The position numbers and the translations under genes are program-made. A model generated the notes under the pieces. The model ran no database searches. It was not told where the DNA came from and worked only from the letters and a program-made list of their open reading frames with translations. A stretch of 54,199 nt of DNA, taken from IMG/VR virus record IMGVR_UViG_3300032053_000099, positions 1 through 54,199 of that record; one strand, written 5' to 3'. This document shows positions 31,756 to 38,042 of the stretch, in pieces; within the stretch, counting starts at the first letter, position 1; each line of letters begins with the position of its first letter. The DNA comes from a virus.

Positions 31756-32394
31756 ATGCCCAAGAGGATCCTCAGGTTTCCGCGTCTGAAGAATAGCCTC
31801 ACCAAGACGGAACGCTTCGAGATCATGGTGAAGATGGGCATCCCTCCACGAGGCTACGACGGGAAGCTGACCGACAAGCAGATGTCAATCATCCGCCGTG
31901 TGGCATCTGGGGAGAGCGTACGCAAAGCCTGTGACAAGCTCCATATCGAGACCGACACGTTCTACCGCTGGCGACGCTGCCACAAGCTGTTCGCCAGGAA
32001 GTTGGTCAGGCTGACACAGAGCCACTTAGAGAAGCTGGATGACACCCTCGACGGCGCACTGGTTCGCTCGGCTCGTGTCGTGGAAGAGAACCTGGACAAC
32101 GAGGATCCATATCTACGTGGGCATACAGCACATGCTGTACTGAAAGGCCGAGGCGTGTTCAAGTCTAGTGTCCAGACTAAGGCTGACGTTCACGTCGATG
32201 GTATCGTTCAGCACGATCACGACGTTACCATGAAGCTGCCGCCGGGTTTGCAGCAGGCATTCATGGAGGCCATACTCCGGGTCGCAGTGACTGGCGGTTC
32301 TGTAAGCAAGGTGCTGCCAGAGTCAGAATTGCCTGTCATAGATATTCTAGCTGAAGAGGCTCCTAAGCTGCTGCCTGCTTCGGCCGAGGGTTAA
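31756..32394 (+). CDS. terS: Terminase small subunit candidate
   Basis: 212 aa. An N-terminal helix-turn-helix (SGESVRKACDKLHIETDTFYRWRR, quoted in part: ACDKLHIETDTFYRWRR) followed by a helical oligomerisation segment, as in small terminases that recognise the packaging site. Upstream of TerL by 725 bp, with the tmRNA and a membrane protein between them. The N-terminus MPKRILRFPRLKNS carries the RFPR end motif. Another DNA-binding protein is possible. Confidence 0.65.
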   Translation: MPKRILRFPRLKNSLTKTERFEIMVKMGIPPRGYDGKLTDKQMSIIRRVASGESVRKACDKLHIETDTFYRWRRCHKLFARKLVRLTQSHLEKLDDTLDGALVRSARVVEENLDNEDPYLRGHTAHAVLKGRGVFKSSVQTKADVHVDGIVQHDHDVTMKLPPGLQQAFMEAILRVAVTGGSVSKVLPESELPVIDILAEEAPKLLPASAEG

Positions 32395-32399
32395 GCATG

Positions 32400-32680
32400 T
32401 CAATGGTCAGGAAGGGGTATTGTCGGACGGGGGTTCGATTCCCCCCGCCTCCACCATTATGGGGGCGAAGCGGCTTCGACGGCGATATCTGGCCTGGCCT
32501 TCATGCCGGATGGCGTGGCCACGTTACGGACACGCAAACCAAAACTGCCACTAACCGTGACAGTAACAAGGTGATCCCATTCCCGATGCACATGCGTCCG
32601 GCGAGTGAGATGGCCTTGGCTGCCTAGTCGAGAGATGAAGCGGGGAGTTGGCCCGTCCCGGCAACAGAAACGGGCCTTCG
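32400..32680 (+). ncRNA. ssrA: Circularly permuted (two-piece) tmRNA
   Basis: The acceptor part comes first: T stem GGGGG/CCCCC around TTCGATT (32429-32445), then acceptor strand CGCCTCC, A and CCA (32446-32456). Only TTAT follows before the 5' end GGGGGCGAAGCGGCTTCGACGG at 32461. CGCCTCC pairs with GGGGGCG over seven positions (one G-U). CATGCCGG after the 5' domain matches the PK1 start of E. coli tmRNA. The tag frame runs from resume codon GCC 32547 to TAG 32625: 26 codons starting ATNRDSNKVI and ending SEMALAA. P2 pairing is partly visible (CGATA 32483/TGTCG 32421; CCTTC 32498/GAAGG 32411). Host SmpB would be needed. Outer ends are approximate. Confidence 0.87.
32650..32676 (+). terminator. 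Hairpin closing the tmRNA region
   Basis: Perfect stem GGCCCGT 32650-32656 / ACGGGCC 32670-32676 with a 13-nt loop. Either a late tmRNA helix or the terminator/processing site of the RNA gene. Confidence 0.5.
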
Positions 32681-32698: not shown

Positions 32699-33115
32699 AT
32701 GACGTTGTATTTCTGGCTCAACTATCTCCTCGGTGCTATCATCCACATCCTCGTCCGTGGCCGATCGGCGTCCCAAAGCAAGGGCTACAAGACCATCGAT
32801 ATCTGGATCAGGACTTACTGGGTGGTTCTCCTGGCCAGGACTATTCTGGGCGGCGGCCTCTTTGCCCTATGGGTGACAGGCAAGGGCCAGGTCGCTGCTG
32901 CTATGGGCGCTAAGTTGCTGGGGCTGGAGTTTACCATCCCCAACATACCCGTCAATGGTCCCACAGCCTTCTTCTTCGGATACTTTGTGGATTCGATCCT
33001 GGACTGGCTATGCAACAAGGTCCCGTTCCTACGTCGAGAGATACCTCAGCTTAATAACGGCGCTCTGTTGCTCCCGGTGCCCCAACAAGGGCCTCTCAGC
33101 AAGCCTGGAGTCTGA
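32699..33115 (+). CDS. Membrane protein, holin-like by layout, 138 aa
   Basis: ATG 32699 after AGGAGGCAAC. Hydrophobic segments near residues 4-18 (YFWLNYLLGAIIHIL), 36-60 (WVVLLARTILGGGLFALWV) and 88-106 (FFFGYFVDSILDWLC). Three spans with a polar tail would suit a holin, but no lysis gene is adjacent. It lies between the tmRNA and TerL. Confidence 0.5.
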   Translation: MTLYFWLNYLLGAIIHILVRGRSASQSKGYKTIDIWIRTYWVVLLARTILGGGLFALWVTGKGQVAAAMGAKLLGLEFTIPNIPVNGPTAFFFGYFVDSILDWLCNKVPFLRREIPQLNNGALLLPVPQQGPLSKPGV

Positions 33116-33118
33116 CGG

Positions 33119-34354
33119 GTGGCTCAGCCTCTTAAATACCGGAAGTTCAAACAGTCGGACATAGACAAGCTGGCAGCAACGCTGGCCTCTCTGACGACTA
33201 TCAATTCCGTCCGGCAGTTTTTGAGGCAGCATTTCGATAGAGGCTTTCGAACCGCCCTCGCAGCCAGTCACCCCGAGTTCTTCCTTTTCTACTATCTTGG
33301 CTTCCGTCTCCCGGCGCACCAGCGTAGGTGGATTGCTCTCTGGAGGACCGTGAAGTACCTGCTGGAGCTTGCCCCCAGAGACCATGGCAAGTCTTGGATT
33401 TTCAACTATGGCCTGCCACTCCAAGAGGTATACGCGTCGTACGTGCGCAGTGGATTCAAGTCCGTGACGGCTCGCATTCTCAGCTTGACCAAGACGGACA
33501 CTCAAGCAGATAAGTTCTCCAACCAGATACGGGAGACGATCGAGCGGAATACATATCTCAATGAGGACTTCGGTGATATTGTAGACCGCAAGTATTGGTT
33601 GAAGGACCACTTCCGCTGCAAGCGTAGCTTAGTAGACGCGGTAGAGAAGGACTGGACGTATGAAAAGTGCGGTATCCTAGGTGCTATCACGGGAGGCCAC
33701 CAGGACCGCATCATCGGAGACGACTGCCTGGATGACGAGAACACCAAAACAGTGGACCGTATGGACACGCTGTCTGCCTGGTTCTGGGGCACGGTCTGGA
33801 ATATGCGGGAGGTCTATACCAGATTCTCCTTCGTTGGTACGCGCAAGAACAGGCGGGACCTGTATAGCGAATTCCTAGCTAATCCTGTCTGGAAGGCCAA
33901 CGTAGAAAGGGCCATCATCAAGTACCCTATGATCCCGGACCCAGATAAGCCGGGTGCCGAGAAGCAAGGCTGGCGGTATATCACTAGCCGCAAGCGTGTG
34001 ATAGATACTCCTCCTGAGCTGAGGCTGGGGGAAGAGATTGTGGACGTAGAACTGCTGACCGATGATCACATAGTGCTGTGGCCGTCGGAGCCAGCGTATG
34101 ACAACGACGGCAAGCCTGAGCTAGACCCCGACACCGGCTTGCAGAAGGTATTCGGTTGGGGCATCAAGGAACTTCTACTGGACCGCGCTGCCTCAGGGCC
34201 GTTGTACTTTGACAGAGAAAAACAGAACAACATCTCATCGACTGAAGGTGTTATATTTGATAGGGCTTGGTGGAGGTTCTTTGCAACCGAGGAGCTGTTC
34301 TTCAACCCGACCGATGGCTGCGTCTATCTTCAGCCTTCGGCAATAGGAGCATGA
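33119..34354 (+). CDS. terL: Terminase large subunit, ATPase part (no nuclease)
   Basis: 411 aa, GTG start. Seen: the adenine-binding region PAHQRRWIALW, Walker A-like LAPRDHGKSWIF (~84-95), Walker B with catalytic acidic pair RIIGDDCLDDEN (~196) and a coupling-motif-like SFVGTRKNR. The protein stops just where the RNase H-like nuclease domain should begin; that domain is encoded separately at 37389. Known: TerL pumps DNA into the procapsid. Splitting into two polypeptides separated by 3 kb is exceptional. Confidence 0.88.
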   Translation: MAQPLKYRKFKQSDIDKLAATLASLTTINSVRQFLRQHFDRGFRTALAASHPEFFLFYYLGFRLPAHQRRWIALWRTVKYLLELAPRDHGKSWIFNYGLPLQEVYASYVRSGFKSVTARILSLTKTDTQADKFSNQIRETIERNTYLNEDFGDIVDRKYWLKDHFRCKRSLVDAVEKDWTYEKCGILGAITGGHQDRIIGDDCLDDENTKTVDRMDTLSAWFWGTVWNMREVYTRFSFVGTRKNRRDLYSEFLANPVWKANVERAIIKYPMIPDPDKPGAEKQGWRYITSRKRVIDTPPELRLGEEIVDVELLTDDHIVLWPSEPAYDNDGKPELDPDTGLQKVFGWGIKELLLDRAASGPLYFDREKQNNISSTEGVIFDRAWWRFFATEELFFNPTDGCVYLQPSAIGA

Positions 34355-34358
34355 TTTC

Positions 34359-35906
34359 ATGGTAGCGATGCCTGCATCCCTCGGCTTCGATAGCGACGTG
34401 CTCTATGAGCAACGCCTAGCAGATTCCCAGCCTGAGCAGACTGTGCTGACGGTGGAGCAGTTGAACGCCCGCATCCGTGAGTCTCACAAGCTCCACTACA
34501 AGACAGAGTTTCAGGATCTACCTATATCCGTCGAGAACCGTAAAGGCTCCGTCCGTGAAGGCACTGACCCCAAGACAGGCAAGCCGTGGCGTACGAAGAT
34601 GAAGAACCCCTACGGCTATATACGGGGCACTAAGGGCGTAGACGGCGACTCTGTGGATGTCTATCTTGGTCCTGAAGAGGAAGCTGGCAAAGCCTTTGTC
34701 GTGCATCAGAAGGACCCGGAGACAGGCAAGTTCGATGAAGACAAGGTGATGCTTGGCTTCCCTAGCAAGACCAAAGCCAGGAAGGCGTTCCTCAAGCACT
34801 ATGACGACCCTGACTTCCTTGGCCCTATATCTGCTATCCCAATGCCGAAGCTCAAAAAGAAGCTGAAGGCCAAGAAGGCCCAGAAGCTGGTAGCGTCATC
34901 GCGTTTGACAGAGCTTGACGTATTGGCACTAGAGCAGAGGCTGCGCGAGGCCGAGCTACAGGAACACGGCATCAAGGGCATGAAGTGGGGAGTGCATAAG
35001 TTCCAAGTCCACGTCAAGCGCGACTACTCCAAATACTCGGAAGCCAAGTACGACACCAACAAGAAGCGATGGTTGACAACGGCAGGCAAGCCTCTACCAA
35101 AGCATATCCAAGCCTGCTACATCCCGCCAGCTTGGCAGAACGTCAGGTACAGCAACGACCCTGGTGACGATCTACTGGTATCTGGAAGGGACAAGAAGGG
35201 TGTAGGTCATGCGGTGTACTCCGCGAAGTTCAATGCCCAGCAGGCCAATTCTAAATTTGAACGGGTCAGCGAGCTAGACCGGAAGTACAACAGAGTCCTC
35301 GCCTCAGTGGTGAACGACATCCGTATTGGCAAGAATGTGGAAGAGGCTTCTATCCTCCGCCTGGTGATGACAACTGGCCTGCGTCCAGGCTCTGAGAAAC
35401 AGAGAGGCGCTGTGAAGGCATATGGTGCGACCACGCTGGAAGGTCGTCATGTTATCGGCAAGGACGAGAGTTCTATTAGGTTGCGGTTCGTTGGCAAGAA
35501 AGGCGTCAAGATCGACGTTCCAGTTACAGACCACGACGTCGCAAGAGACCTATTGAAGCGTCGCGGCGAGGCAGGTCCTCTGGGGCGCATATTCAATCCA
35601 GGTCCCGGCGAGGCTGTTAGGAGCTACTCGAACACCCAAGATGGGGGAGGGTTCAAAACGAAAGATTTCCGTACCCTTCTCGGCACTCGTGTAGCACAGG
35701 CGGAGAGGGACAAGCTGCCCCCACCGAAGACAGAGAAGGAATACCGTGTGTCTTGCAAAGCCGTCGCCAAGATAGTATCCGAGAAACTGGGCAATACGCC
35801 CAATGTGGCGTTGAAAGCATACATCGCGCCTCACGTATTCGCGGGATGGCGAGTGGGGAAGGGTTGGCGTGTGAGTAAGGTAGTAGAATCTGGGAGGGCC
35901 ACATGA
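34359..35906 (+). CDS. InPase-like domain + GMKWG tag + DNA topoisomerase IB fusion
   Basis: 515 aa. Residues ~48-160 match the phage 'inorganic-pyrophosphatase-like' domain of polyvalent proteins (ISVENRKGSVREG, YGYIRGTKGVDGDSVDVYLG, quoted in part: GYIRGTKGVDGDSVDVYLG). HGIKGMKWGV follows at ~202-211. Residues ~225-515 are topoisomerase IB: TGLRPGSEKQRG (Arg), RLRFVGKKGVK (Lys), KDFRTLLGT (Arg), and LGNTPNVALKAYIAPHVF with the catalytic Tyr at 488. All catalytic residues are present. Known: it relaxes supercoils by nicking one strand. Placed between the two TerL genes, it likely acts during packaging or inside the virion (inference). Confidence 0.88.
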   Translation: MVAMPASLGFDSDVLYEQRLADSQPEQTVLTVEQLNARIRESHKLHYKTEFQDLPISVENRKGSVREGTDPKTGKPWRTKMKNPYGYIRGTKGVDGDSVDVYLGPEEEAGKAFVVHQKDPETGKFDEDKVMLGFPSKTKARKAFLKHYDDPDFLGPISAIPMPKLKKKLKAKKAQKLVASSRLTELDVLALEQRLREAELQEHGIKGMKWGVHKFQVHVKRDYSKYSEAKYDTNKKRWLTTAGKPLPKHIQACYIPPAWQNVRYSNDPGDDLLVSGRDKKGVGHAVYSAKFNAQQANSKFERVSELDRKYNRVLASVVNDIRIGKNVEEASILRLVMTTGLRPGSEKQRGAVKAYGATTLEGRHVIGKDESSIRLRFVGKKGVKIDVPVTDHDVARDLLKRRGEAGPLGRIFNPGPGEAVRSYSNTQDGGGFKTKDFRTLLGTRVAQAERDKLPPPKTEKEYRVSCKAVAKIVSEKLGNTPNVALKAYIAPHVFAGWRVGKGWRVSKVVESGRAT

Positions 35907-37147
35907 TAGACCAGGCCCATTTCGGTACAGTCGAGGACAGGCCAGCCGACTGGCGCAAGGCATTGAAGGACGGAACGCTGAAGGACGAGCCCGACGACGA
36001 CGAGGATCGTCCAGCGACGCCAGACGTTATCGGTATGCTGGGCTTCGACCCTGATGAACCTGATGAACCTGATGAAGGCGGGGAGCCTGCTGAGGAATCG
36101 GGCTTACGTGAGTACGGCACCTTGGGAATGAAGTGGGGAGTCCGCCACGAACGCCCGCATACTGTGGGGGGCCGCCACGTATTAGAACGGCATCCAAATT
36201 TTCAAGCGTTCAAGGACTTCCTTCTAGCCAATGGATACAAGGAGAAGAAGGGTGCATTCCGCTGGCATCAAGGTCCGGCAGGCAACGTTCTACTACAGGT
36301 AGTCGGGGGGACTTGGGAGCTTCAGAGAAATGGGCAACGCCTCGCTCGTGGAGGCACTCTGGAGGGCCTGAAGGCTGCTCTCACTGCTGAATACGCCGCG
36401 CCCCCGCCTAAACCCGCCGATGCTGTTGGTACGATGGCTAGTACTCCGGCGGAAAGTCATCTCCGTAGTAGCCCTATCGCTAGCTCCAAAGAGATTGGTC
36501 ACGGTGTCAGTGGCGCGGAGCTGGTCACTTTCGCAGACGGCTCCAAGGCTGTTTGGAAGGCTGACGACAAGGAGTCCAAAGGCTGCCGTGACAATATATC
36601 AGATGGGTACATGGGTGCCCGAGAGTACGGCGCATGGGTACTAGCCAAGGTGATAGGTATGACGGACTTAGTGACACCAATCGCTAAGCGTACGATCGAT
36701 GGGAAGGTAGGCACATTGTCAGCGTTCCAGGAAGGCGTGGTAGCGAACGCTGTAGACAGAGGCGATAGATTCGACGGTACCCGCGATCTGGCGCGTGCCG
36801 CTGTCTTCGACTTCATCATAGGCAATGAGGACCGTCATACCGGCAACTGGCTCATGAAAGCAGGCAGGTTTCGCTTGATCGATCATGGCCTGTGCTTCCC
36901 GGATAAGGGCAAGTATGTTGGTGAGAATGAGCAGGTCCTGGGGCGTGCTAGAGGCCATCTCGATCTAGAGCTAGAAGGCAAAGATCTTCTGCGCTCCCAG
37001 GCCGACATCTACACCCAGAGGAAAGACAAGATCCTGTCTACACTGGGAAAAGCAGGGTTGCCAAAGGGTTCCTTGGAAGGTGTGGCTGCAAGGATCGATC
37101 AGCTCAGTAAAGCCGCTGAGCTAGGTGGATGGGGGGACTTGAGATGA
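35903..37147 (+). CDS. PI3/4-kinase-like (HipA-related fold) protein with GMKWG tag
   Basis: 414 aa. N-terminus acidic (DDDEDRPATPD), then YGTLGMKWGVRHER at ~71-84 and a small alpha/beta domain. Residues ~190-400: GVSGAELVTF, the ATP-lysine strand KAVWKADDKE, FDFIIGNEDRHTGNW (DRHxxN catalytic loop, ~308) and FRLIDHGLCF (metal-binding D-x-G, ~326). These are the hallmarks of phosphatidylinositol 3/4-kinase and related kinases. The substrate could be protein, lipid or nucleotide. GTGA/ATGA-type overlaps tie it to both neighbours. Confidence 0.72.
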   Translation: MIDQAHFGTVEDRPADWRKALKDGTLKDEPDDDEDRPATPDVIGMLGFDPDEPDEPDEGGEPAEESGLREYGTLGMKWGVRHERPHTVGGRHVLERHPNFQAFKDFLLANGYKEKKGAFRWHQGPAGNVLLQVVGGTWELQRNGQRLARGGTLEGLKAALTAEYAAPPPKPADAVGTMASTPAESHLRSSPIASSKEIGHGVSGAELVTFADGSKAVWKADDKESKGCRDNISDGYMGAREYGAWVLAKVIGMTDLVTPIAKRTIDGKVGTLSAFQEGVVANAVDRGDRFDGTRDLARAAVFDFIIGNEDRHTGNWLMKAGRFRLIDHGLCFPDKGKYVGENEQVLGRARGHLDLELEGKDLLRSQADIYTQRKDKILSTLGKAGLPKGSLEGVAARIDQLSKAAELGGWGDLR

Positions 37148-37392
37148 CATGCCGTCTGTGTATCTTAACACCGGAAGGCAAGAGGAAACTAGTGGGCCTT
37201 ATCTCTCTAGAGAACGGACGCATCAAGGGAAAGCCCGCTCGAGGCTACAAAGAGACCGTGAAAGAGGTCCTCTCCACTAGCTATACACGACACGGTAAAC
37301 GCCTGTCCGTGCTGGCTACTCCTGAACTCTGGCTCAAGAATCTTCCAATCCAATACCACGGGACATACTTCTGGGTAGAGGCTGTCCAGTGA
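37144..37392 (+). CDS. Small orphan between PI-kinase-like and TerL nuclease genes, 82 aa
   Basis: ATGA overlap upstream, GTGA overlap downstream. CRLC at residues 3-6, strands GLISLENGRIKG and VLATPELWLKNL, then YHGTYFWVEAV. Resembles small proteins seen near phage head genes ('FL..Lp..y.GtYl.ae') with no known role. Confidence 0.55.
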   Translation: MTCRLCILTPEGKRKLVGLISLENGRIKGKPARGYKETVKEVLSTSYTRHGKRLSVLATPELWLKNLPIQYHGTYFWVEAVQ

Positions 37393-38042
37393 TCTCCCTC
37401 CGTCCATTGGCCTACGCAGATTTGGCAGTCAAGACAGAACATGATCCTGGAGTGCGCCTGAAAGCTGACGGCAGCGTAGACGCCGACTGGTTCTGTCTGG
37501 CCATCGGTGCCCGCGTACAGCAGTTCATCTACATCCTAGACTTGTACCGCGCCCAGATTACGTTCCCTGAGCAGGTGCGTGCTATCATCAGGGAATACCA
37601 TCGTTGGAAGATCTGGAAGATCGGGATTGAAAGCAATAATTACCAATGGGCACTAGGCCAGCAGATATGGGAAGCCGGCCTGCCTGCCGTGCCAGTACCA
37701 TCCAGCAGCGACAAGGTCTACCGTGCCACGATGGTCACGCCTCACGTAGAGACGGGCCGGGTGCGTTTCCGTGGCGTCATGGAGAATGGCGTGCTAGTAT
37801 CGCATCCTGCACTGCGACGCTTCTTTGTTGAAGCCGCCGACTTCCCGTTCGGCGACAGGGACGACGCCGTTGACGCCGTGGTCGGCCTTATCCAGATGGC
37901 TACCAGCGAGGAGATCATGGGCCAGGAGCTGGCACTTGTGCATAAGCCCGGATACGGCCTAGTAACTACAAGCGGCTCGTACGCAGGTGGTATCAGGCAG
38001 CACAAGCGCGACCCGTTCGACGTTATGGTGTCCAACTACTGA
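37389..38042 (+). CDS. terL: Terminase large subunit, RNase H-like nuclease part
   Basis: 217 aa, GTG start overlapping the previous stop. Seen: first strand LAYADLAVKTEHD (metal-binding Asp), GIESNNYQWALGQQIWEAG (Glu strand; quoted in part), and C-terminal FPFGDRDDAVDAVVGLI, the usual 'hDDxxDA' helix of TerL nucleases. It has no ATPase part. Together with the 33119 gene it reconstitutes a normal TerL. Known: it makes the packaging-initiating and terminating cuts. Confidence 0.87.
   Translation: MISLRPLAYADLAVKTEHDPGVRLKADGSVDADWFCLAIGARVQQFIYILDLYRAQITFPEQVRAIIREYHRWKIWKIGIESNNYQWALGQQIWEAGLPAVPVPSSSDKVYRATMVTPHVETGRVRFRGVMENGVLVSHPALRRFFVEAADFPFGDRDDAVDAVVGLIQMATSEEIMGQELALVHKPGYGLVTTSGSYAGGIRQHKRDPFDVMVSNY

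Follow-up and report, generated by a model that had tools for sequence, protein, structure and literature searches.

A permuted tmRNA gene with a long tag between the terminase genes of an uncultured virus

The 54,199-bp uncultured virus record IMGVR_UViG_3300032053_000099 (the whole stretch analysed, hereafter the window) carries a circularly permuted transfer-messenger RNA (tmRNA) gene at 32395–32680 on the plus strand, between the terminase genes TerS and TerL. The gene is real and divergent, and its long, motif-bearing tag is its more unusual feature. It is a known kind of element with an apparently new tag variant.

Identification and fold of the gene

The window was scanned against all of Rfam with cmscan, and ARAGORN was run in addition. 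The tmRNA_permuted model RF04321 aligned over its whole length (positions 1–213) to 32395–32627 with 85.3 bits (E = 5.6e-15 in 54 kb; gathering score, 47 bits), the sole Rfam match above threshold in the window. ARAGORN independently called a permuted tmRNA (tmRNA*) with the tag ATNRDSNKVIPFPMHMRPASEMALAA. The gene runs from its 3' half to its 5' half, and the acceptor strands pair at 7 of 7 positions, including G3-U70. RF04321 covers two-piece ssrA of Alphaproteobacteria, Betaproteobacteria, and Cyanobacteria, with which the window gene shares half order, T-arm, a 7-bp acceptor with G3-U70, encoded CCA, P2, and a tag ending in LAA. It differs by a 26-amino-acid tag that does not start with AND and by a 4-nt spacer; spacers among related tmRNAs are 3–80 nt long. 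Compared with the alphaproteobacterial genes that were read, the T-loop of the window gene is canonical and theirs are not. The GGCAACAGAA loop of the 3' hairpin occurs in many other viral tmRNAs (alignment A1) and in one alphaproteobacterial tmRNA (L186). An earlier sequence-only reading had placed a phage-encoded permuted tmRNA between TerS and TerL at 32400–32680, which RF04321, ARAGORN, and the phrog_1482 and phrog_38 neighbours bear out to within a few bases. The order it described (T-arm, acceptor strand, and CCA ahead of a GGGGGCG 5' domain), its seven acceptor pairs, and its tag frame ending in ALAA can all be read in the sequence (Table 1).

Table 1. Features of the permuted tmRNA gene and its neighbours in the window.
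Feature	Position	Strand	Basis or remark
TerS, upstream neighbour	31756–32394	+	phrog_1482 (E = 6e-7), HTH_23; homologue stands immediately 5' of TerL in 7/7 relatives
Permuted (two-piece) tmRNA gene	32395–32680	+	RF04321; ARAGORN tmRNA*; RF01849 end to end at 32335–32678
Acceptor-side (3') piece: P2 strands, T-arm, acceptor 3' strand, ACCA	32395–32456	+	Sequence, cmscan alignment, pair counts
T-arm	32429–32445	+	Sequence; canonical
Acceptor 3' strand CGCCTCC	32446–32452	+	Sequence
ACCA	32453–32456	+	Sequence; CCACCA encoded
Intervening 4-nt spacer TTAT	32457–32460	+	Sequence; removal on processing expected
Coding (5') piece: acceptor 5' strand, GGCTTCGACGG, P2 partners, tag, 3' hairpin	32461–32680	+	
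Acceptor 5' strand GGGGGCG	32461–32467	+	Sequence; followed by GGCTTCGACGG
P2 partners	32480–32486, 32493–32499, 32502–32506	+	
Tag reading frame ATNRDSNKVIPFPMHMRPASEMALAA-stop, resume codon GCC	32547–32627	+	ARAGORN, cmscan alignment, translation
3'-terminal hairpin GGCCCGT-CCCGGCAACAGAA-ACGGGCC	32650–32676	+	Sequence
138-amino-acid hydrophobic open reading frame	32699–33115	+	Between tmRNA and TerL
TerL, N-terminal ATPase part, downstream neighbour	33119–34354	+	phrog_38 (E = 1.3e-34)

A scan of 2.9 million viral contigs with a permuted-core pattern yielded 88 stretches. In alignment A2, of 49 distinct viral sequences, pairing was scored at 19 preset pairs in the T-stem, the acceptor stem, and inner P2. 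Standard pairing was found in 96.2% of cells, with changes on both sides at 11 of the 19 pairs, and none of 500 shuffles equalled the real alignment in pairing or in covariation score. With the partner offset by one to three columns, pairing fell to 49%–57%. Acceptor and T-stem pairs are paired in 100% of cells, the seven acceptor pairs are conserved in 49/49 sequences, and the third (G3-U70) is U-G at columns 44/85 in every one. Because the sequences were picked with a pattern in which some of the T-arm and acceptor is preset, invariant pairs in those parts are uninformative; the variable pairs carry the information.

Tag peptides and permuted tmRNAs of other phages

The window tag has 26 amino acids, an Ala resume codon, and an ALAA end followed by a stop, and it contains KVIPFP (encoded at 32568–32585), which the sequence-only reading had missed. 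ARAGORN tags in the viral set are either 10–17 or 24–33 amino acids long. The motif K[VLIF][VLIF]x[FI]P, defined after the tags had been seen, is present in eight of nine distinct viral tags of at least 24 amino acids; when these tags were shuffled, a mean of 0.005 carried it. Three of the eight (L103, L111, and L168) were obtained by motif search, so the unbiased count is five (the window, L018, L066, L046, and L052). Long tags lacking the motif are those of L033 in the viral set and of the isolate Tunturi_4. The motif is encoded with differing third codon positions (GTG/GTC/GTT, CTC/CTG, and TTC/TTT), which suggests selection on the peptide. The window, with 26 amino acids and KVIPFP, falls within a group delimited by at least 24 amino acids and K[VLF][ILF]x[FI]P, together with the uncultured viruses L018, L066, L046, L052/L086, L103/L104/L111/L114, and L168. 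This long-tag group, with tags of 24–33 amino acids, appears to be undescribed; no report of it was found in the searchable literature.

Tags in alphaproteobacterial genomes are 10–13 amino acids long and start with ANDN (32/32). A search for the tag motif across 84,980 bacterial species gave 47 matches with no tmRNA among them, using a narrow pattern that would miss the window itself, and a search of 385 alphaproteobacteria found none, using a pattern that needs TTCGAC/GTTCGA, which is absent from the alphaproteobacterial tmRNAs read. Both are weak tests, because the patterns require TTCGAC/GTTCGA and the narrow one misses the window. The window tag peptide had no meaningful match in phage isolates.

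Permuted tmRNAs are established in phages. The study that described a two-piece tmRNA in the methylophage Melnitz also counted 53 two-piece candidates in public phage genomes (Buchholz 2022, PMC9004378), and the tmRNA database paper lists the RF04321 model and 79 unique bacteriophage tmRNA sequences (PMC11915505). Melnitz and the pelagimyophages (PMC9004378) carry a permuted ssrA in a tailed phage, as here; the window copy lies in the TerS-TerL junction. The sequence-only reading had held that permuted phage copies would be notable in themselves. That novelty is rejected by the 2022 report, by the 88 viral stretches, and by six isolate cases: such copies are frequent.

Six of seven isolate stretches taken from a BLAST match list scored above the RF04321 threshold (73–137 bits), and none is annotated as tmRNA. 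They belong to CcrRogue, PaMx31, vB_SmaS-DLP_6, CcrBL9, and XacN1 (L213, L214, L215, L216, and L219, respectively) and to Tunturiibacter phage Tunturi_4 (L218; PP885687.1, 43279–44511). Their tags have 12–13 amino acids in three cases, 21 in CcrBL9, and 34 in Tunturi_4, and unlike the window tag they lack K[VLF][ILF]x[FI]P. The beta model accepts the genes of PaMx31, DLP_6, and XacN1 but not the window gene. No terminase gene lies beside the tmRNA in the isolate stretches read, mostly about 600 bases on each side. In Tunturi_4, a phage of an acidobacterium, the tmRNA adjoins a gene annotated as an RF-1 domain release factor, giving two candidate ribosome-rescue genes. Pseudomonas, Stenotrophomonas, and Xanthomonas have an ordinary one-piece tmRNA, so the host cannot be read off from a permuted copy in a phage. 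The window gave no exact 22-base host match, and no close cultured relative was found.

The terminase junction and placement of related tmRNAs

TerS, the tmRNA, and the 138-amino-acid open reading frame are tightly packed on one strand; the TerS stop codon abuts the tmRNA, and the TerL ATPase gene lies 0.44 kb downstream of it. Seven uncultured viruses encode a TerL 54%–61% identical to that of the window, and in 7/7 nothing separates TerL from a TerS homologue, which overlaps or abuts it. A segment of ~0.72 kb, the tmRNA plus the 138-amino-acid frame, interrupts in the window a junction that is continuous in these relatives. The interrupted junction appears to be undescribed. The 138-amino-acid frame has no family match and is not present in the seven relatives; a relative of 31% identity occurs at L170 17177–17458, in the same record as the L066 long-tag tmRNA and ~7 kb from it.

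Three long-tag lineages with an identifiable TerL have the tmRNA adjoining TerS or TerL, at three different junctions. The order in L018 is TerS, TerL, and then the tmRNA with its long motif tag, so that the gene follows TerL rather than separating it from TerS. L052, L103, and L111 form one lineage by their flanking genes, in which a DNA-binding gene is followed by the tmRNA, TerS, and TerL. L078 has the same gene order with a 10-amino-acid tag. In L168 the tmRNA stands just 5' of a Neck1/head gene, the L066 tmRNA is elsewhere, and that of L046 is near a contig end with no TerL match. A tree of the core (~130 nt, weakly resolved) groups most long-tag genes with the short-tag L038, L078, and L067, with L046 apart. 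Terminase adjacency tracks this core clade and not tag length, as L078 illustrates. Terminase types differ as well (phrog_38 in the window and L018, phrog_2 in the L052 lineage), and because both types and junctions differ, terminase-side placement seems to have more than one origin within this core group, on small numbers and a post hoc comparison. Placement beside the terminase in three long-tag lineages appears to be undescribed. A general enrichment of viral tmRNAs near terminase genes is unsupported: TerL is far from the tmRNA in most other lineages where it was located (L010, L016, L036, L043, L047, L055, L064, and L092; 2.5 kb in L024), and a supposed terminase neighbour in L057 is PhoH. 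On the L038 contig, a tRNA cluster stands beside the permuted tmRNA, and 7310–7367 matches the Type-P5 twister ribozyme (42 bits; cut-off, 37.6).

The TerL of the window is itself split into an ATPase frame (33119–34354) and a nuclease frame (37389–38042) that stand ~3 kb apart, with other genes in between. The split recurs in relatives L002–L006 and L008 with different intervening genes. In the window these include an inorganic pyrophosphatase-like domain fused to topoisomerase IB (34359–35906) and a PI3/PI4-kinase-like protein (35903–37147), both with a short HGIKGMKWGV-type motif (DUF7211). Positions 1–450 of the window look non-coding and fold strongly (z = -3.0 relative to shuffled sequences). 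Rfam gave nothing meaningful for this stretch and BLAST nothing in phage records; it may be a structured RNA.

Proposed function and alternatives

The reading we favour, with a probability of about 0.72, is a functional two-piece tmRNA that is produced along with late packaging transcripts and uses host SmpB and AlaRS; transcription, processing, charging, and tagging are all predicted steps. The permuted ssrA would be transcribed within the packaging (late) operon of the phage. Host RNase P and 3'-end trimming would cut the transcript around the 4-nt spacer, leaving a two-piece tmRNA whose parts stay joined through the acceptor stem and P2. Host AlaRS would recognise G3-U70 and charge it, and host SmpB would bring it to ribosomes stalled late in infection, where stalled chains would receive alanine and the 26-amino-acid tag ending in ALAA. 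Ribosomes would be recycled, and tagged chains would go to a host protease. SmpB is undetectable in the phage record, so the phage would depend on that of its host. Late-infection ribosome rescue is plausible from the position and co-orientation of the gene, and placement in the late operon recurs in related tmRNAs.

Several results weigh against this reading. The sequence-only reading had proposed a check with covariance models; RF04321 scores well above its gathering value, but none of the three clade-specific models reaches its own (alpha_tmRNA RF01849, 45.5 bits against 50, though aligned end to end over 1–355; beta_tmRNA RF01850, 50.6 against 84, partial; cyano_tmRNA RF01851, 55.5 against 70, partial). 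Sampled alphaproteobacterial tmRNAs score 115–166 bits with RF04321 and the window gene 85; this lower score and the three failed models mark it as divergent. There is no sigma-70-like promoter on the plus strand near the tmRNA. No tmRNA was found in any of the seven TerL-relative records (a weak match in one is a tRNA), so this phage group can do without it, and the idea that it is a conserved part of the group is rejected. Since the junction is continuous in the relatives and none carries a tmRNA, the tmRNA and the 138-amino-acid frame are most simply read as a local acquisition on the lineage of the window.

A different use of the same molecule would be as a decoy or modifier that competes with host tmRNA for SmpB and AlaRS, changing host trans-translation rather than supplementing it, with the long tag serving as a poor degron or steering tagged chains elsewhere. 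The tag has 26 amino acids against 10–13 in 32 alphaproteobacterial tags, the common K[VLF][ILF]x[FI]P motif suggests that some property of the tag is under selection, and a tag-less form of the phage DS6A tmRNA is reported to inhibit host tmRNA in Escherichia coli (PMC11915505). We nevertheless consider this unlikely, given that, as in an active tmRNA, nothing is missing from the tRNA-like domain and the tag frame is unbroken, with its Ala resume codon and ALAA end. Less likely still is an RNA-processing device, in which the tRNA-like structure recruits RNase P to cut the packaging mRNA and uncouple TerS from TerL, and the tag matters little. The end of TerS and the start of the 138-amino-acid frame do fall right at the tmRNA edges, and in three lineages a tmRNA borders a terminase gene; the seven relatives, however, join TerS and TerL without such an element, the tag frame and motif are kept though unneeded for cutting, and tmRNAs also occur at other sites (L066 and L168).

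tmRNA genes are common integration sites and the window is a single metagenomic contig, which would fit either a remnant of host ssrA carried at an attachment site or an artefact of assembly that produced a chimera. This is very improbable for a gene that is complete with CCA, tag, stop codon, and 3' hairpin, that is packed between TerS and a downstream frame with its own ribosome-binding site, that has no integrase among ~30 open reading frames scanned, and whose 4-nt spacer and 26-amino-acid tag are unlike the sampled alphaproteobacterial genes. Tail sequences of tRNAs do give weak matches (L098, 18 bits), yet chance resemblance or an ordinary tRNA fragment is refuted here, with next to no probability left to it, by E = 5.6e-15 over the full 213-position model, the independent ARAGORN call, and covariation.

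Permuted tmRNA genes are often unannotated in phage genomes, those of isolated phages included. The function of phage tmRNAs is unsettled, and the common tag motif and the repeated placement in packaging operons offer a testable handle on it. A bolder and tentative idea, which we regard as possible and somewhat improbable, is that a phage group evolved permuted tmRNAs with a selected tag motif absent from host tags and kept them in the packaging/head module. If so, the tag would serve a purpose other than simple ClpXP targeting, for example by engaging a different protease or adaptor or by marking structural proteins stalled at a late stage.
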